From Oscillospiraceae bacterium (lineage in GTDB: Bacteria; Bacillota; Clostridia; Oscillospirales; Oscillospiraceae), in contig JAFQZI010000151.1 of the NCBI GenBank assembly GCA_017406005.1, positions 1 to 64,000 of the forward strand: a stretch of 64,000 nt of DNA. The letters run 5' to 3'. The position numbers were made by a program, and so were the translations under genes. A model generated the notes under the pieces. That model searched no databases, was not told the DNA's origin, and saw only the letters and a list, made by a program, of their open reading frames with translations. Position 1 is the first letter of the stretch. Each line of letters starts with the position of its first letter. Positions 1-44,234 of this stretch are shown here, one piece after another.

Positions 1-1046
1 GCATAAGCTGCCGGGAAACAGTTGTCTACAAACCACTTCAGGCTGTCCCCAACACAGTTCTGGCCGGATTCATATCCGTAAGTTCCGGGAATCACTCCGT
101 CCTCTACGATTCCGCCCACGCCGGGGACTTCCTTCTCTTCCGCGCCGAGCATGAGATGGCAGGTAGATGTTCCAAGGATCATCAGAAGATTTCCGGAATC
201 CGTCAATCCGACAGGGGGCATGGAAACATGCGCGTCAATGTTCGCCACCGCAACGGCAATTCCCTGCAGCAGCCCAGTCAACTCAGCACCTCTCGCATTG
301 AGAACACCCGCTTTTGTCCCGAGCGGATAGATATCCCGGGAGAGTTTTTCATCAATCACACGTTCAAACCCGGGTTTGAGGGATCTCAGGAAGTCTTCAG
401 ATGGATAACCATCCTCCTTTGACCAGAAAGCCTTATAGCCAGCCATTCCGAGAGAACGCTTCTCCTGGCCGGTGAGCTGATAGACAATCCAGTCACCGGC
501 TTCGATAAATTTAGCAGCCGCATCATACAGATCCGGTGCTTCCTCCATTGTTTCAAGCAGACGCGGGAACATCCAGGCCGGAGAAACTTTTCCGCCGTAC
601 CGTTTCAGAAATGTCTCTCCCCGCTCAATCGCCTTTTTCTCCATTTTCTCGGCATAGCTCTGCGTGCCGTGGTGCTTCCAGAGTTTTACCCATGCATGCG
701 GATTGTCCTGCCATTCCGGTTTCAGGCAAAGGGGTTCATACCGGTCGTCCACCGGAAGGTAGGTATTGCTTGTAAAGTCAATACCGATTCCGATCACATC
801 CTCCGGATTGATTCCGGAATACGCAACTGCCTGATGCACCACTATGGAAAGCCCGTCGAGATAATCCTGAGGATGCTGCAATGCCCAGTCAGGCGGAAGC
901 CGGCGGCCGTCGGGCAGGCTCTCTGACATAACGGCATGCGGATAGTCATAGACGGCGGATGCGAGTTCTGCGCCGTCTTTTACATCTGCCACAAGTGCGC
1001 GAACCGAGAGCGTTCCGTAGTCAACGCCGATTGCATATTTTGCCAT
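1..1046 (-). CDS. FGGY-family carbohydrate kinase, ribulokinase (AraB)-like, 3' end cut by window
   Basis: The start ATG is at 1044-1046 and the frame runs open off the left edge, giving about 348 N-terminal residues of a protein that usually has about 550. The N-terminus begins MAKYAIGVDYGTLSVRAL, the phosphate-binding DYGT motif of FGGY kinases, and continues with LPPDWALQHPQDYL, a stretch typical of AraB-type ribulokinases. An ILGTSTCH segment matches the second actin-like phosphate loop. Family members phosphorylate L-ribulose or other pentuloses and polyols in the cytoplasm. It is the last visible gene of the ABC transporter operon, 15 nt after a small membrane protein, so it probably phosphorylates the imported sugar or its isomer. 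The exact substrate cannot be told from the sequence. Confidence 0.85.
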   Translation of the reverse strand, partial: MAKYAIGVDYGTLSVRALVADVKDGAELASAVYDYPHAVMSESLPDGRRLPPDWALQHPQDYLDGLSIVVHQAVAYSGINPEDVIGIGIDFTSNTYLPVDDRYEPLCLKPEWQDNPHAWVKLWKHHGTQSYAEKMEKKAIERGETFLKRYGGKVSPAWMFPRLLETMEEAPDLYDAAAKFIEAGDWIVYQLTGQEKRSLGMAGYKAFWSKEDGYPSEDFLRSLKPGFERVIDEKLSRDIYPLGTKAGVLNARGAELTGLLQGIAVAVANIDAHVSMPPVGLTDSGNLLMILGTSTCHLMLGAEEKEVPGVGGIVEDGVIPGTYGYESGQNCVGDSLKWFVDNCFPAAY

Positions 1047-37137: not shown

Positions 37138-38520
37138 TTAAATTCTGCTTTTATCATATTCCCTGAAGAAATCTCTTGTATCCTTGACCACCACGCTGCC
37201 GAAGAGGATCAGAGAGAACAGGTTCGGAATGGCCATAAGGCCGTTGCAGACATCCGCTGCATCCCAGAGGAGCTGTACGCTAATCAGCGCACCGGCGGAG
37301 GAGATGATCATGTGCAAGATACGATAAATCTTCACTTTATGTGCACCGAAAAGGAACGCAAATGCCGATTCGCCATAGGTATACCAGCCGAGAACTGTAG
37401 ACAGGCAGAAAAGAATCAGGGAAATCACGATCACAATCTGTCCTAGTCCACCCAGGTTTTGCCGAAAGGCAGTGGCAGCCAGCACTGTACCATCCGTGAC
37501 GCCGCTGTTCCAGACACCGCTGACCATTATGATAAGCGCTGTGAATGTGCAGATCACAAAGGTATCAAAAAAGACTTCGATAATGCCGTAAAGCGCCTGT
37601 TTGACCGGAACATCCACTTTAGCCGTGGCATGAACCATGGCTGAGGAACCGGTACCCGCTTCGTTGGAAAACACACCACGCTGAACCCCTCGCCGGATTG
37701 CTACGGCCATTGTGGCCCCCGCCAGCCCTCCGATCACTGCATCGCCGGTAAAGGCTGACTTCACGATGAACCACAGTGCCTGCGGGATCAGCGTGATGTT
37801 CATGATCAGGATTATCAGGCCAAATCCCAGATAGATGATTGCCATTATCGGTGTGAGGTACGTGGTAACATCGGCAATCTTTTTCACACCTCCGAAAATG
37901 ACCAGCCCATCAATGATAAGAATCAAAATTGCAATGACCCAGGGAATCACTATCGTATTTCCTATATATCCGCTGACGGCACTGCTGATGGTATTGACCT
38001 GCAGCGCACCGCAGGAGACGAAAGAAACAAAGACTGTAAATACAGCAAATGCACCGCCAAGGATCTTCGCAATGGTCTTCTGCTTCATGCCTTGCGTCAG
38101 AATGTACATGACGCCGCCGCGGAAGTTGCCTTCCTCGTCCTGTACACGATAGTGCATAGCGAGAGCAATTTCTGCAAATTTGGTGGCCATACCCCCTATC
38201 GCTGCGATCCACATCCAGAAGATCGCTCCGGGCCCGCCAACAGCGATCGCGTAAGCCACGCCGACAATGTTCCCGTTGCCCACACAGGAGGAGAGCGCCG
38301 TGGCCAATGCTTTATAAGATCGGATTTGCCCAATCCCGTCATCGGATTTCTTTTCTACATTGAGTACAACTTCCCGGAAGGCTGTTCCGAATCGGGTAAA
38401 CTGAATGCCGTGGAGGCGGATGGTAAAGTAGAGCCCTACGCCGAAGAATACGGCCAGCATGATGGGCCCAAACAGGAAAGTGCCTAAGTCTCCCAATACT
38501 TTTCCTATGATTGCTTCCAT
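37138..38520 (-). CDS. Sodium:amino-acid symporter, AGCS (alanine/glycine carrier) family
   Basis: The 460-residue membrane protein has about 11 hydrophobic segments. The family signature is visible as GPGAIFWMWIAAIGGMATKF and the GVFSNEAGTGSSAMVHATAK loop. AGCS proteins import alanine, glycine or related amino acids with sodium. The gene is preceded by a Cys/Met-rich leader peptide and a terminator, so its true substrate may be cysteine, cystine or methionine, or a precursor, rather than alanine; this is inferred from regulation only. It is co-transcribed with mnmA. Confidence 0.92.
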   Translation of the reverse strand: MEAIIGKVLGDLGTFLFGPIMLAVFFGVGLYFTIRLHGIQFTRFGTAFREVVLNVEKKSDDGIGQIRSYKALATALSSCVGNGNIVGVAYAIAVGGPGAIFWMWIAAIGGMATKFAEIALAMHYRVQDEEGNFRGGVMYILTQGMKQKTIAKILGGAFAVFTVFVSFVSCGALQVNTISSAVSGYIGNTIVIPWVIAILILIIDGLVIFGGVKKIADVTTYLTPIMAIIYLGFGLIILIMNITLIPQALWFIVKSAFTGDAVIGGLAGATMAVAIRRGVQRGVFSNEAGTGSSAMVHATAKVDVPVKQALYGIIEVFFDTFVICTFTALIIMVSGVWNSGVTDGTVLAATAFRQNLGGLGQIVIVISLILFCLSTVLGWYTYGESAFAFLFGAHKVKIYRILHMIISSAGALISVQLLWDAADVCNGLMAIPNLFSLILFGSVVVKDTRDFFREYDKSRI

Positions 38521-38573: not shown

Positions 38574-38606
38574 GTTTGGCATCTCTGCCTATCCGCTATA
38601 AACCGG
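38571..38606 (-). promoter_or_regulatory. Candidate antiterminator in leader 1
   Basis: CCGGTTT (38600-38606, over the last peptide codons) pairs with AAACCGG (38571-38577) around a GGCA/TGCC hairpin. It overlaps the left arm of the terminator, so the two folds are mutually exclusive. A ribosome at the peptide stop would hide the first arm. Confidence 0.6.
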
Positions 38607-38715
38607 CAAAGACACTCGAAAGCATGGACTCGGAAAAACAGGCACAACGACACATGCACATATCCATGGACATGCGCATCATAGAGGAGTAGTTTTTCTC
38701 GAATACAGCTTTCAT
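38596..38715 (-). CDS. Cys/Met-rich leader peptide 1 (39 aa)
   Basis: The ATG at 38713-38715 follows AAGGGAG and opens a 39-codon frame. Residues 12-26 contain six Met and four Cys, with the core M-D-M-C-M-C-R-C-A-C. The peptide ends directly before the antiterminator/terminator switch of the AGCS-mnmA operon. This is the arrangement of ribosome-mediated attenuation: slow decoding of Cys (or Met) codons would favour the antiterminator and expression of the transporter and MnmA. A direct metal- or redox-binding role of the peptide is an alternative but would not explain the RNA switch. Confidence 0.72.
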   Translation of the reverse strand: MKAVFEKNYSSMMRMSMDMCMCRCACFSESMLSSVFAGL

Positions 38716-38729
38716 TTTTCTCCCTTTTA

Positions 38730-38750
38730 AACCTATTGACTTAGTAGGTT
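38730..38750. promoter_or_regulatory. Dyad between the AGCS leader and the CN-hydrolase gene
   Basis: AACCTA-N9-TAGGTT is an exact inverted repeat covering the start site of the AGCS transcript and the -35 of the divergent gene. It recalls Rrf2/CymR-type sites in general form. It is a candidate operator for both directions. Confidence 0.5.
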
Positions 38751-38764
38751 ATTCCGTTTATACT
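38736..38764 (+). promoter_or_regulatory. Promoter of the CN-hydrolase gene
   Basis: TTGACT (38736-38741), a 17-nt spacer and TATACT (38759-38764) lie 46 nt upstream of the ATG and overlap the divergent AGCS promoter. Confidence 0.7.
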
Positions 38765-39715: not shown

Positions 39716-39934
39716 GTGAAATCTATTCTGATTAAGGATACTACGCGAGAAGAACGCGAGAAAATCGTCCATCAGGCACTCTGGGGAGCATGTGGCATTG
39801 ACTGCGAATTCTGCTCCGGTTGCGACAATCGCGGCGGCGGACGTATCGAGGGAATTTACCAGGCGTACATTGACGGTGAGAAAGAGATCCAGGAAATCAA
39901 CGAAGAATACCGCGCTCCGTTTGTAAGAGGATAA
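39716..39934 (+). CDS. Small Cys-motif protein (72 aa)
   Basis: The GTG at 39716 has AAGGAG 10 nt upstream. The 72-residue product begins with a charged helix (TREEREKIVHQAL), then CGIDCEFCSGCDN, four Cys in 11 residues, and an acidic C-terminal helix (YIDGEKEIQEINEEYR). I recall similar short proteins, with a Cys-containing centre and an ending like EINxEFRA, in Lachnospiraceae, without an assigned role. The cysteines could bind a metal. It lies between the CN-hydrolase gene and the second Cys/Met leader. Confidence 0.6.
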   Translation: MKSILIKDTTREEREKIVHQALWGACGIDCEFCSGCDNRGGGRIEGIYQAYIDGEKEIQEINEEYRAPFVRG

Positions 39935-39990: not shown

Positions 39991-40019
39991 TTGACAAGGG
40001 TTTTCTTCTGTGGTATAAA
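39991..40019 (+). promoter_or_regulatory. Promoter of the metY-cysK-cysE leader
   Basis: TTGACA (39991-39996), a 17-nt spacer and TATAAA (40014-40019) repeat the design of leader 1 and MOSC promoters. Confidence 0.8.
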
Positions 40020-40041
40020 CATATCAACCTTCTATGTTTAT
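40015..40041. promoter_or_regulatory. Perfect 9-bp dyad at the metY promoter
   Basis: ATAAACATA (40015-40023) and TATGTTTAT (40033-40041) are exact reverse complements around 9 nt, starting within the -10 box. It is a strong candidate repressor site and resembles the dyad at the MOSC promoter. Confidence 0.65.
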
Positions 40042-40059
40042 TCTTTTTGGAGGACTGTT

Positions 40060-40140
40060 ATGTATAAGGCAAGCTTCATCTGCATGATGTGTTGTGACAT
40101 GCGCTGTGAGATGCGCGTGCGCTTTGCCATACCCATTTAA
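40060..40140 (+). CDS. Cys/Met-rich leader peptide 2 (26 aa)
   Basis: The ATG at 40060 has TTGGAGG 7 nt upstream and opens 26 codons ending TAA. Residues 8-18 read C-M-M-C-C-D-M-R-C-E-M, giving four Cys and four Met in 11 residues. The terminator starts 25 nt after the stop. GATCTCC just after the stop can pair with GGGGATC of the terminator arm, a possible antiterminator that a terminating ribosome would cover. The peptide is therefore most likely a sensor of charged tRNA-Cys (and perhaps tRNA-Met) controlling metY, cysK and cysE. Confidence 0.75.
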   Translation: MYKASFICMMCCDMRCEMRVRFAIPI

Positions 40141-40164
40141 GATCTCCGTTCATGATGGTCGTTC

Positions 40165-40196
40165 CCGGGGGATCCAATGGGTCCCCCGGATTTTTT
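40165..40196 (+). terminator. Attenuator terminator before metY
   Basis: CCGGGGGATCC (40165-40175) pairs with GGGTCCCCCGG (40179-40189), one T-G wobble, then six Ts. It lies 138 nt before the metY ATG. Confidence 0.9.
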
Positions 40197-40333
40197 GCTT
40201 TTGAGGTTGATTTAATGAAAAAATATTTCGAGCGACTGGTCCGTCACAATTATCGATTCGATCGAATGTGATTTCTTTCTTTCCAAACATCCAAAACCTA
40301 ATCCAAAATAAAATTAAGAAAGAGGTTACAACC

Positions 40334-41626
40334 ATGTCTAATTATAAATTTGAAACTCTGCAACTTCACGTAGGCCAGGAACAAGCCGATCCCACTACAG
40401 ATGCACGGGCAGTTCCAATTTATCAGACTACATCTTATGTTTTCCACAACTCCGCACATGCCGCAGCTCGTTTTGGCCTGACTGATGCGGGAAACATTTA
40501 TGGGCGTCTCACAAACTCCACACAGGAGGTACTGGAAAAACGCATCGCGGCACTTGAAGGCGGTGTAGGTGCTCTGGCTCTTGCTTCCGGCGCAGCAGCT
40601 GTGACTTATGTTATCGAAGCTCTCGCACAAAAAGGAGATCATATTGTTGCGCAGAAGACCATCTACGGCGGCAGCTACAATCTGCTGGCACATACTCTCC
40701 CTCTTTACGGGATCGAGACCACTTTTGTGGATGCCCATAATCTGGAAGAAGTGACAGCCGCTATTCAGCCCAACACCAAAGCAATTTATCTGGAAACTCT
40801 CGGCAATCCAAACTCTGACATTCCGGATATCGATGCCATCGCACAGATCGCTCATGCCCATCAGATTCCGCTGGCAGTTGACAACACCTTCGGTACACCC
40901 TATTTGATTCGCCCCATTGAACATGGTGCAGATATTGTACTTCACTCCGCAACTAAGTTTATTGGCGGGCACGGTACCACGCTGGGCGGTATCGTGGTGG
41001 ACTCCGGACAATTTGACTGGAAATCAAGCGGGAAGTTTGCCCCGATCGCAGATCCCAACCCCAGCTATCATGGCATTTCCTTTGTCGATGCGGCCGGTCC
41101 TGCTGCTTTTATCACCTACCTGAGGGCCATTCTTCTGCGGGACACCGGTGCGGCAATCTCCCCCTTCAATGCTTTCCTTCTTCTGCAGGGTGTAGAAACC
41201 CTGTCGCTCCGTCTGGATCGGCATGCAGAGAACACCAAAAAGGTCGTGGAATTTCTAGCCGGGCATCCGCAAGTGGAAAAGGTTAATCATCCCTCCCTAC
41301 CGGAGCATCCGGATCACGCCCTGTATCAGAAGTATTTTCCGAACGGCGGTGCTTCCATTTTTACTTTTGATATCAAAGGCTGTCAAAAAGAAGCACATGC
41401 CTTCATTGACGCGCTGGAGATTTTCTCTCTGCTGGCGAACGTTGCAGATGTGAAAAGCCTGGTCATCCACCCGGCAACAACCACACACTCACAGCTATCT
41501 ACGGAAGAACTGGAAGATCAGGGTATCCACTCCAACACCATTCGCCTTTCCATCGGTACTGAGCACATTGATGATATCATAGCCGACCTGGAAAAAGGGT
41601 TTGCAGCAGCGGCAAATATCGAATAA
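40334..41626 (+). CDS. metY: O-acetylhomoserine sulfhydrylase (aminocarboxypropyltransferase)
   Basis: The ATG at 40334 has AAAGAGG 8 nt upstream; the 430-residue length is that of MetY rather than shorter MetB/MetC. It is a PLP enzyme with the cofactor lysine K208 in HSATKFIGGHG and the Tyr/Arg phosphate site in IYGRLTNST. It makes homocysteine from O-acetylhomoserine and sulfide (some members make cysteine from O-acetylserine). It is the first enzyme gene after the Cys/Met attenuator and heads an operon with a B3/4 protein, cysK and cysE, so sulfide assimilation into both amino acids is grouped here. Confidence 0.93.
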   Translation: MSNYKFETLQLHVGQEQADPTTDARAVPIYQTTSYVFHNSAHAAARFGLTDAGNIYGRLTNSTQEVLEKRIAALEGGVGALALASGAAAVTYVIEALAQKGDHIVAQKTIYGGSYNLLAHTLPLYGIETTFVDAHNLEEVTAAIQPNTKAIYLETLGNPNSDIPDIDAIAQIAHAHQIPLAVDNTFGTPYLIRPIEHGADIVLHSATKFIGGHGTTLGGIVVDSGQFDWKSSGKFAPIADPNPSYHGISFVDAAGPAAFITYLRAILLRDTGAAISPFNAFLLLQGVETLSLRLDRHAENTKKVVEFLAGHPQVEKVNHPSLPEHPDHALYQKYFPNGGASIFTFDIKGCQKEAHAFIDALEIFSLLANVADVKSLVIHPATTTHSQLSTEELEDQGIHSNTIRLSIGTEHIDDIIADLEKGFAAAANIE

Positions 41627-41638
41627 CAGGAGGAAGCA

Positions 41639-42319
41639 ATGGATTTCTATGTAGAACAGGCTGTGTTGGATGCAGGAGTTAAAATTATTTTTGCCACGGT
41701 CTGCGGGTTAGACAATCACGGCGAGGATCCGGAATGGGCTGCTTATCGTGAAAAACGGCTGGCGGAGCTTTCAGAGGAATACTCCGAGCTGGATGTGCAC
41801 ACTGATCCGATCCTGGAGGGTTTCAACCTCCTGCATGACAAAACAGGTGTAAAGCGGCGCAAAAATATACCAGCCAGCGAGAATCTGATCAAACTGCTCA
41901 AAAAAAACCACGGCATGTTCTATATCAATCAGGCAGTGGATATCTACAACCTTATCTCCCTGGAGAGTAAACTTGCCCTCGGTGCGCACAACATTGATCA
42001 AGTCGAAGGTGATGTCACACTTCGTTTCACCGACGGCAGTGAGCGATTTGTCCCCATTGGTCAGACGGAACCTGTTCCGGTTGCTCCGCATGAGTACAGC
42101 TACTGCGACGATGCAAACGAGGTACTCTGCCGGCTGGAAATCCGACAGGTAGAAAAGACCAAGGTGGACGAATCTGCACAGAACATTTTTTACATTGTGC
42201 AGGGTAATGAGGCAACCCCTTATGAGCTGTTGTATGAAACTGCTTATAAAATCATTGATATGACGACAAAATACTGCGGAGGCGTCGGATCAGTTATCAC
42301 CCCAACTCTCCGTGCTTAA
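41639..42319 (+). CDS. Stand-alone B3/4 domain protein (tRNA-editing-like)
   Basis: The 226-residue protein has the B3/4 fold motif [20 protein letters not shown] and the strand pattern [18 protein letters not shown], as in the editing module of phenylalanyl-tRNA synthetase beta subunits. There is no synthetase catalytic domain. Free B3/4 proteins may hydrolyse mis-charged tRNAs or bind amino acids. Its place between metY and cysK, under a leader that reads Cys/Met tRNA charging, suggests a role in checking tRNA charged with cysteine, homocysteine or a related amino acid. This is an inference. The Shine-Dalgarno is CAGGAGG. Confidence 0.75.
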
Positions 42320-42425: not shown

Positions 42426-43358
42426 ATGTCTAACATTTATACATCCGCTGATCAGCTGATCGGAAAGACCCCGCTGCTGGAGCTCACGAATATAGAGAAA
42501 GAGGAAAGACTGGAAGCCACAATCCTCGCCAAACTGGAATACTTCAACCCCGCAGGATCCGTTAAGGACCGCATCGCCAAAGCTATGATTGACGACGCCG
42601 AGGCGAAAGGCCTGCTCAAAGAAGGCTCTGTCCTCATCGAGCCGACCTCCGGCAACACCGGCATCGGTCTTGCCTCTGTGGCGGCTGCGAGAGGCTATCG
42701 TATCATTATCGTCATGCCGGAAACCATGAGTGTAGAGCGCAGACAGCTGATGAAAGCTTACGGCGCAGAGCTGGTGCTCACTGAGGGTTCGAAGGGTATG
42801 AAAGGCGCTATCGCCAAAGCCGATGAGCTGGCAAAGGAAATCCCCAACGCCTTTATTCCCGGTCAATTTATTAATCCCGCCAACCCCGCCGTCCACAAAG
42901 CAACGACCGGGCCGGAGATCTGGGCAGACACCGACGGAAAGGTAGACATCTTTGTTGCCGGCGTTGGGACCGGAGGCACGATCACGGGTGTGGGCGAATA
43001 TCTCAAGGAGCAAAATCCTGCGGTTAAAGTTGTAGCGGTGGAGCCTGCCGGTTCGCCTGTCCTCTCTAAGGGCACAGCCGGTTCGCACAAGATTCAGGGC
43101 ATCGGCGCAGGTTTTGTCCCGGATGTTTTGAACACCACCGTGTATGATGAGATCATCGCTGTGGAGAACGAGGATGCTTTTGCGGCAGGAAGAAAGATCG
43201 GCCGCGCAGAAGGCGTACTGGTCGGAATCTCCTCCGGCGCTGCGGTCTGGGCCGCGATCCAGCTTGCCAGGCGCCCGGAAAACAAGGGCAAAACAATCGT
43301 CGCCCTTCTGCCGGATACCGGTGACCGCTACCTGTCAACACCGCTGTTTGCCGAGTAA
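42426..43358 (+). CDS. cysK: Cysteine synthase (O-acetylserine sulfhydrylase)
   Basis: The ATG at 42426 follows CAGGAGG by 8 nt and yields 310 residues, typical for CysK. The PLP lysine is K47 in [21 protein letters not shown] binds the amino-acid carboxylate and the phosphate loop is GTGGTITG. The enzyme makes cysteine from O-acetylserine and sulfide. Serine acetyltransferase, which supplies its substrate and may form the cysteine synthase complex with it, is encoded 3 nt downstream. Confidence 0.96.
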
Positions 43359-43361
43359 AAA

Positions 43362-44234
43362 ATGGACAACACGACGTCCCTTTTGATCCGGCATACCGTC
43401 CAGGCACTTGAAGATACCGCCGAGGATCGGCAACTTGACGATCGTCGCGGTCTGCGCCTGGAAGTGGAACGCCTGACCGATCTGCTGATCGACGTGCTCT
43501 TTCCCCGCTTTGCTTCATCCGAGACTTCAAGAGAAGCCCGTTTGGAACAGACTGTCGAGTTGTTGGAACATACGCTTGAAAGGATATCCTCTTCCCTCCG
43601 ATCGGAGGAAATTGTCCGCTCACTTCTTGAAAATCTTCCGGAGGTCGAACGGCAGCTGAAATCGGATCTGGTCGCTGCCTATCAGGGCGATCCCGCTGCA
43701 AAAAGCATCGATGAGGTCATTCTCTGTTATCCGGCTTTTACGGCCATCAGCACCTATCGTCTTGCCCACATCCTGTACCGGGAGAATGTACCTCTCCTGC
43801 CGCGCATGATGACGGAATATGCCCACCGCCTGACCGGGATCGACATTCATCCCGGGGCATCCATCGGCGATTCCTTCTTCATCGATCACGGGACCGGTGT
43901 GGTGATCAGAGAAACAACGACCATCGGCACAAATGTCAAGCTGTATCAGCACGTCACTCTGGGTGCCAAAAGCTTTGAAGTCGGAGAGGACGGAACACTC
44001 GTCAAGGGAATCAAGCGGCACCCGGACATTGGAGATCGTGTCGTCATCTATTCGGGTGCCACGATTCTGGGCGGAGAAACGCAGATCGGAAATGATTGCA
44101 TCATCGGCGGCAGCGTGTGGCTGACACATTCGATCCCTGCCGGAAAAATGGTTTTGGCCCGGGCGGCTGTAACGGATGCACCTCTTACGAAAGAACTAAT
44201 GACATGTCCCATTCTGGACTGCTCTATGCTTTGA
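43362..44234 (+). CDS. cysE: Serine O-acetyltransferase
   Basis: The 290-residue protein has an N-terminal helical region and a left-handed beta-helix of hexapeptide repeats from about 170, including GIDIHPGASIGDSFFIDHGTGVVI (split for position: residues about 158-181) with the catalytic His, and GGSVWLTHSIPAG. It acetylates serine for cysteine synthesis. The start ATG follows the cysK stop after 3 nt without its own Shine-Dalgarno, implying translational coupling. The C-terminus ends CPILDCSML, not the -Ile tail that inserts into CysK in many species, so complex formation is uncertain. Confidence 0.93.
   Translation: MDNTTSLLIRHTVQALEDTAEDRQLDDRRGLRLEVERLTDLLIDVLFPRFASSETSREARLEQTVELLEHTLERISSSLRSEEIVRSLLENLPEVERQLKSDLVAAYQGDPAAKSIDEVILCYPAFTAISTYRLAHILYRENVPLLPRMMTEYAHRLTGIDIHPGASIGDSFFIDHGTGVVIRETTTIGTNVKLYQHVTLGAKSFEVGEDGTLVKGIKRHPDIGDRVVIYSGATILGGETQIGNDCIIGGSVWLTHSIPAGKMVLARAAVTDAPLTKELMTCPILDCSML

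Follow-up and report, generated by a model that had tools for sequence, protein, structure and literature searches.

Does the short, Cys/Met-rich ORF that stands ahead of the metY-B3/4-cysK-cysE genes of this Oscillospiraceae bacterium switch their transcription in response to amino-acid supply, or is control exerted elsewhere, e.g., at the promoter? The window (i.e., the whole 64,000-nt stretch analyzed, from an assembly of 3.5 Mb in 174 contigs) had received a preliminary description in which a 26-codon ORF with an ideal ribosome site, a TTGACA-17-TATAAA promoter and an 11-bp terminator stem with six Ts were read as amino-acid attenuation, with codons suited to the pathway downstream. These parts lie where that description had placed them (Table 1), the family assignments of metY, cysK and the cysE-like gene fit the match between codon content and pathway, and the attenuation reading itself is supported by codons, terminator, antiterminator complementarity and gene content. 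Absent from it were a second antiterminator block, a hairpin (P1) in codons 13–20 and a second short ORF; and, as it had called this leader the “second,” we located the “first” on the opposite strand, before a sodium:alanine symporter gene.

Table 1. Coordinates of the leader, its candidate control elements and the neighboring genes in the window.
Feature	Position	Strand	Basis
Promoter TTGACA-17-TATAAA (TTGACA 39991-39996, TATAAA 40014-40019, 17-nt spacer)	39991..40019	+	sequence; TTGACA-16..18-TATAAA ahead of 23/29 leaders
AAACAT...ATGTTT inverted repeat, candidate operator, overlaps then follows the -10 box	40017..40039	.	sequence
GGAGGA, ribosome-binding site of the leader; possible pairing with post-stop CUCC	40049..40054	+	
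Leader ORF MYKASFICMMCCDMRCEMRVRFAIPI, 26 codons (ATG 40060, TAA 40138-40140); putative control codons Cys8, Met9-10, Cys11-12, Met14, Cys16, Met18	40060..40140	+	
Hairpin P1 within codons 13-20 (arms 40098-40104, 40113-40119)	40098..40119	+	28-row alignment
Putative antiterminator 5' strand ACCCATT TAA GATCTCC	40131..40147	+	
Intrinsic terminator stem-loop; 40168-40182 doubles as putative antiterminator 3' strand	40165..40189	+	covariation
Terminator six-T tail	40191..40196	+	sequence
Second short ORF MKKYFERLVRHNYRFDRM and stop, with CGA-ATG-TGA (class B leader)	40215..40271	+	
metY, O-acetylhomoserine sulfhydrylase	40334..41626	+	TIGR01326 above cut-off
B3/4 domain protein	41639..42319	+	PF03483
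cysK, cysteine synthase A	42426..43358	+	TIGR01139 above cut-off
cysE-like serine O-acetyltransferase	43362..44234	+	TIGR01172 E 5e-46, below cut-off
“First” Cys/Met-rich leader MKAVFEKNYSSMMRMSMDMCMCRCACFSESMLSSVFAGL; has promoter-like boxes and a terminator of its own; precedes symporter gene	38596..38715	-	
Sodium:alanine symporter gene, downstream of the 38596-38715 (-) leader	37138-38520		

The promoter, ribosome site, leader, terminator and second short ORF all lie in the 399-nt stretch between an ORF at 39716-39934 and metY. That flanking ORF, just 5′ of the leader promoter, encodes 72 amino acids with a Cys cluster (ACGIDCEFCSGC) and had no Pfam match; in several relatives, a similar stretch with a CKGFGG end precedes the leader promoter. 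A TTGACA box with some TANNNN box was found upstream of 28 of the 29 leaders whose upstream DNA was read, and the window promoter is absent from our promoter scan because the scan accepts only T as the final base of the -10 box.

In the leader, 8 of 25 codons specify Cys or Met (window background: C 1.5%, M 2.6%), which for one chosen ORF, uncorrected for search, gives a binomial P of about 5e-6. The conserved leader family is the stronger evidence: of the 102 genomes of the window’s genus, 26 have leader DNA, four of them in two copies, which makes 30 places. The leader typically reads MRxASFNCMMCCDMRCEMRVRFAIPI. Twenty-eight of these places form our alignment (A5); L158, with the leader MNKAIFNCMMCCDMRCGIRVRFALPI, was omitted as failing the end pattern, and L194 as having no readable terminator. 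L183, which lacks a stop at codon 27, and L193, with TGG at position 1, were kept. Cys11, Cys12 and Cys16 are retained in 26, 26, and 25 of the 28, Met9, Met10, Met14 and Met18 in 26, 22, 22, and 25, and Pro25 in all. Both TGT and TGC occur at positions 11 and 12, and some Cys positions are Trp in relatives. With a ribosome site 6–11 nt 5′ of the start and conservation at the level of codons, the leader is probably translated.

Conservation extends to the genes that follow. At 28 of the 30 places the next gene is metY (9), cysK (12), B3/4 (2) or an amino-acid ABC transport gene (four permeases and one solute-binding protein), as typed by tblastn with the window’s proteins and those of two family-typed relatives; L167 and L188 themselves supplied the permease and solute-binding references. 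No next gene was reached by tblastn at L159 and L194. The preliminary description had conceded that its reading would fail if the leader were not conserved where metY is; this check left the reading standing. Among the 12 metY places with at least 92% identity, the leader lies within 420 nt in eight, and in one metY starts at the contig end. At the other three a different ORF ends right ahead of metY; one of these genomes (G383) carries a leader ~3.2 kb upstream on the metY contig, before a permease gene, and the other two carry leaders on different contigs. Farther afield, the two-ORF layout recurs at one metY of 81% identity (L208), where the Cys/Met-rich leader is a different one, MQKAYAVSMMMDMRCSMHMCCCMLS, and a metY at 80% in the same genus (L007) has a class C leader (see below) instead.

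Between leader and first gene stands the intrinsic terminator, with 11 pairs (9 of them G-C) followed by A and six Ts, and with -11.8 kcal/mol or better in 27 of 28 leaders (L159 is weak). P1 is paired in 99.5% of alignment cells, with two pairs changed on both sides. Over P1 and the terminator, 24 cells are changed on both sides (shuffled mean 8.8), 18 of them within the terminator, to which five of the seven both-side-changed pairs also belong, and the covariation score was reached by 0 of 500 shuffles. Judged from this alignment the terminator covaries, and P1 is a possible pause hairpin.

The pairing of GATCTCC, right after the stop codon, with the terminator arm had also been proposed, and it recurs here as one of two blocks: GATCTCC (40141-40147) with GGGGATC (40168-40174), and ACCCATT (40131-40137) with AATGGGT (40176-40182). 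In the resulting antiterminator, codons 24–26 and the post-stop CUCC pair with the terminator arm and loop. Its columns are 84–85% paired in the 28 rows, and its mean duplex energy is -18.7 kcal/mol vs. -11.2 for scrambled strands. Covariation with own as opposed to swapped partners was not significant (P = 0.14), and the score for P1 plus antiterminator was matched by 41 of 500 shuffles, i.e., only marginally above them. Given a complementarity above that of scrambled strands and bases shared with the terminator, the two structures are mutually exclusive. The locus has, then, a leader ORF with codons for the amino acids of the pathway, a terminator before the first gene and an antiterminator exclusive with it, as a ribosome-mediated attenuator has.

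Ribosome position was modeled with an assumed footprint that hides RNA to 12 nt past the first base of the A-site codon, and the antiterminator was counted as formed from six expected pairs upward. For a ribosome with its A site at Cys16, it formed in 0, 9, 24, 27, 26, and 22 of 28 leaders when the hairpin was short by 0, 2, 4, 6, 8, and 10 nt, respectively; with the ribosome at the stop codon it formed in 0 of 28 throughout, an inevitable outcome where the assumed footprint hides the strand. Scrambling the antiterminator strand left 40% of 560 controls passing this mark, with a mean of 5.5 pairs vs. 13.6. For the window leader with 4 nt missing, a stalled ribosome gave a terminator probability of 0.00, and a ribosome at the stop codon gave 0.63. 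Folded at full length, it gave the terminator at every ribosome position, as did L003, L086, and the symporter leader. In these models, ribosome position sways the fold of a partly transcribed terminator, as when RNA polymerase has yet to clear it, and leaves the window’s complete hairpin unaffected. Since the antiterminator forms in no leader with a complete hairpin and the window has no full-length switch, the mechanism, on these models, would have to be kinetic rather than a purely thermodynamic switch. Two leaders of another family (L063, L113) had full-length terminator probabilities of 0.02–0.57 with the A site in most of the Cys/Met-rich stretch.

On this pattern of conservation, complementarities and gene context we consider it probable that the leader acts by ribosome-mediated transcription attenuation, sensing charged tRNA-Cys and, as a likely second input, charged tRNA-Met; the Cys and Met inputs are inseparable by sequence. 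When Cys or Met is scarce, a ribosome would stall on uncharged tRNA at codons 8–18, perhaps with polymerase pausing at P1, so that the final stretch of the leader ORF would be free, as would the post-stop CUCC; the freed strand would pair with the terminator 5′ arm and loop ahead of hairpin completion, and RNA polymerase would continue into metY-B3/4-cysK-cysE. When Cys and Met are plentiful, the ribosome would reach the stop codon and cover the strand, and the terminator would form, a choice that we infer to be kinetic. More tentatively, if no ribosome has loaded, the CUCC might pair with the leader’s own ribosome-binding site, so that the terminator remains. Folded without a ribosome, the ribosome-site region pairs with the post-stop stretch in 25 of 28 leaders (at three or more expected pairs), and because 178 of 280 scrambled controls do so too, such a protective pairing is only suggestive.

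Inverted repeats lie just past the -10 boxes of both window leaders (38730-38760, 40017-40039) and recur in relatives; the one by the symporter leader reads AACCTA...TAGGTT. Several relatives have a candidate operator repeat resembling AACCTAATAGGT. We take these -10-box repeats to be candidate sites of an Rrf2/CymR-type repressor, and they suggest a layer of such repression. One Rrf2 gene scores above cut-off elsewhere in the genome (G000:C75). An unlikely alternative builds on this layer: the terminator would be fixed, merely ending or dampening transcription, with control at the promoter through the operator-like repeat. The occurrence of the repeat in many relatives, the Rrf2 gene and the very strong terminator of the complete fold are all consistent with it, but it leaves unexplained the conserved Cys codons, P1, the post-stop CUCC and the antiterminator complementarity, as well as a common design ahead of cysK, transporter and metY genes. 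Promoter repression and ribosome-mediated attenuation may also both be active together.

We regard as very improbable a stalling of the ribosome by the nascent peptide itself in response to a metabolite or drug. The peptide is conserved, with MRVRF or MRMRF near its end, and Arg-X-Arg marks macrolide-type leaders; yet the pair is not kept here, as Arg19 is retained in 24 of 28 leaders (His in four) and Arg21 in 20 (Cys in seven, Leu in one), and the drug-leader assignment was rejected on these counts. Sulfur metabolism genes lie downstream, and L063, L113, L208, and the symporter leader share the layout and the Cys/Met content but not the sequence. That the ORF encodes a functional small protein owning the terminator is hardly credible: conserved amino acids, a ribosome site and a promoter of its own would suit it, but NCBIfam gave no match to either window leader or to the one class B peptide searched, the terminator is complementary to the final codons of the ORF, and 28 of 30 places precede Cys/Met-type genes.

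The symporter leader is differently built, with an M-C-M-C-x-C core and a terminator. The Cys/Met-rich stretch and terminator are kept at L171 (the window itself) and at L172–L174, the start of L173 being ambiguous; these are the four viewed of nine loci, as the search pattern missed the other five.

Beyond the attenuator, two further leader classes (B and C) occur in Clostridia, and they have a common Arg(CGA)-Met pair. CGAATG is found within 450 nt in the upstream regions of 50 of 108 metY-like genes (80 public contigs and 28 further loci). Class B, to which the window’s second short ORF belongs, reads F-x-x-L-V-R-x-N-F-R-x-G-R-M and lies mostly directly 5′ of metY, sometimes of transporter genes; no terminator of its own was seen. 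In a peptide search of the same contigs and loci, the codon ahead of ATG is CGA in 21 of 23 class B ORFs (exceptions L044 and L079), and it is CGA in all 11 additional ORFs reached by way of leader A, while the other two Arg positions use all six Arg codons and CGA makes up 5.9% of Arg codons in the window’s large ORFs. The near-invariant CGA-ATG pair (40263-40268 in the window) is in both classes conserved at the level of codons. Around and beyond the class B stop, the window’s RNA is complementary to the metY ribosome site (-17.1 kcal/mol); across 57 rows, of which L008 is a false match, the mean unpaired fraction of the downstream ribosome site went from 0.38 to 0.51, with no consistent switch. 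Class B may possibly act through a slow CGA codon before AUG or as an arrest peptide.

Class C reads M-C-C-Arg-Met-x-x-Ser-Arg-Ala (DNA CGAATG-N5-CTCCCGGGCA), with Cys as the codon before CGA in 11 of 18 and a terminator in 27 of 31. It precedes metY, MetQ-like lipoproteins, amino-acid ABC permease and cystathionine-lyase-like genes (NCBIfam mostly below curated cut-offs) and, at L141, a cysK-like ORF fragment. When the A site is shifted from the codon before CGA to the second one after ATG, the terminator probability at full length rises from <0.3 to >0.6 in 22 of 27, vs. 7 of 135 with a scrambled pairing strand, in a set whose search pattern required TCCCGG and thus selects part of that strand. 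The attenuation that we read as kinetic in the window’s genus can in class C also be seen in the complete fold, which counts in favor of the reading. At L148 the class C ORF stops right after Arg-Met-Arg with pairing strand and terminator kept, which suggests that the ORF is required no further than Arg-Met.

In model searches with filters that lose weak matches, 33 of 291 genomes of the class had class B and 12 had class C at E 0.01, where the weakest include chance matches; in a phylum-wide sample of 398, at E 0.001, class B was found in 1 (the window’s own) and class C in 4. Three matches (L150, L151, L152; E 0.002–0.008) look like chance, with no short leader ORF seen. On a contig labeled Fibrobacter (L105), a mini ORF MRCRMCNQSKGGRA stands before metY; the contig may be mis-binned, or the spread may be wider. 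We put forward, as a doubtful proposal, that the three classes are related and form an undescribed sulfur amino-acid leader system of Clostridia, in which class B, its last Arg almost invariably the rare codon CGA, would be an arrest peptide and a second, translational checkpoint directly before metY, so that the window would have, in series, an attenuator sensing tRNA and an arrest leader sensing a metabolite. The Arg(CGA)-Met pair hints at a ribosome-stalling signal without known explanation.

How, then, does the attenuator relate to known systems? Rfam gave no gathering-score match in the window and 17 relatives, hence no T-box or SAM riboswitch match in the window. Canestrari, in 2020, reportedly dealt with leaderless polycysteine ORFs, to go by the title. 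The mycobacterial leaderless type was rejected for the window leader, which has a ribosome site and ~40 nt from -10 box to start. Mycobacterial polycysteine ORFs are termed translation attenuation (PMC13236596). Leader ORFs with Cys runs before cysteine genes in Actinobacteria share the placing of Cys codons ahead of such genes and differ in that conserved terminator hairpins are reported to be absent (PMC1262725). Attenuation is predicted for the uORFC-8-2 motif before cysS in Rhodobacterales, which likewise has tandem Cys codons, a hairpin holding them and a terminator-like U run; as described, it is set apart by its Alphaproteobacterial hosts and its tRNA synthetase gene (PMC8632094). Among Firmicutes, ribosome-mediated attenuation is described for the Leu case of Staphylococcus aureus ilv-leu (PMC5794164), and “regular” His leader peptides replace T-boxes (PMC2965389), the latter differing from our leader in amino acid and genes (hisS/hisZ). 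With ilv-leu and trp/his/leu-type attenuation the window leader shares codons for the regulated amino acid, an antiterminator opposed to a terminator and, as in S. aureus, a low-GC Gram-positive host; unlike ilv-leu, it has Cys/Met codons, an antiterminator strand formed by the last codons and the post-stop CUCC, and copies at several operons of one genus.

No Cys/Met leader attenuator in Clostridia was among the matches listed from open-licence PubMed Central papers, nor were the class A–C peptide strings found there, which is not proof of absence. While Cys-codon attenuation is already known as an idea, its Cys/Met version in Clostridia is apparently new. For Firmicutes, the papers cited report attenuation by leader peptides with few amino acids (His, branched-chain), and the many paralogous copies of the present leader lend themselves to easy testing. 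If true, a Cys/Met attenuator ahead of metY, cysK, and transporter operons would account for the control of sulfur amino-acid supply in these Clostridia.
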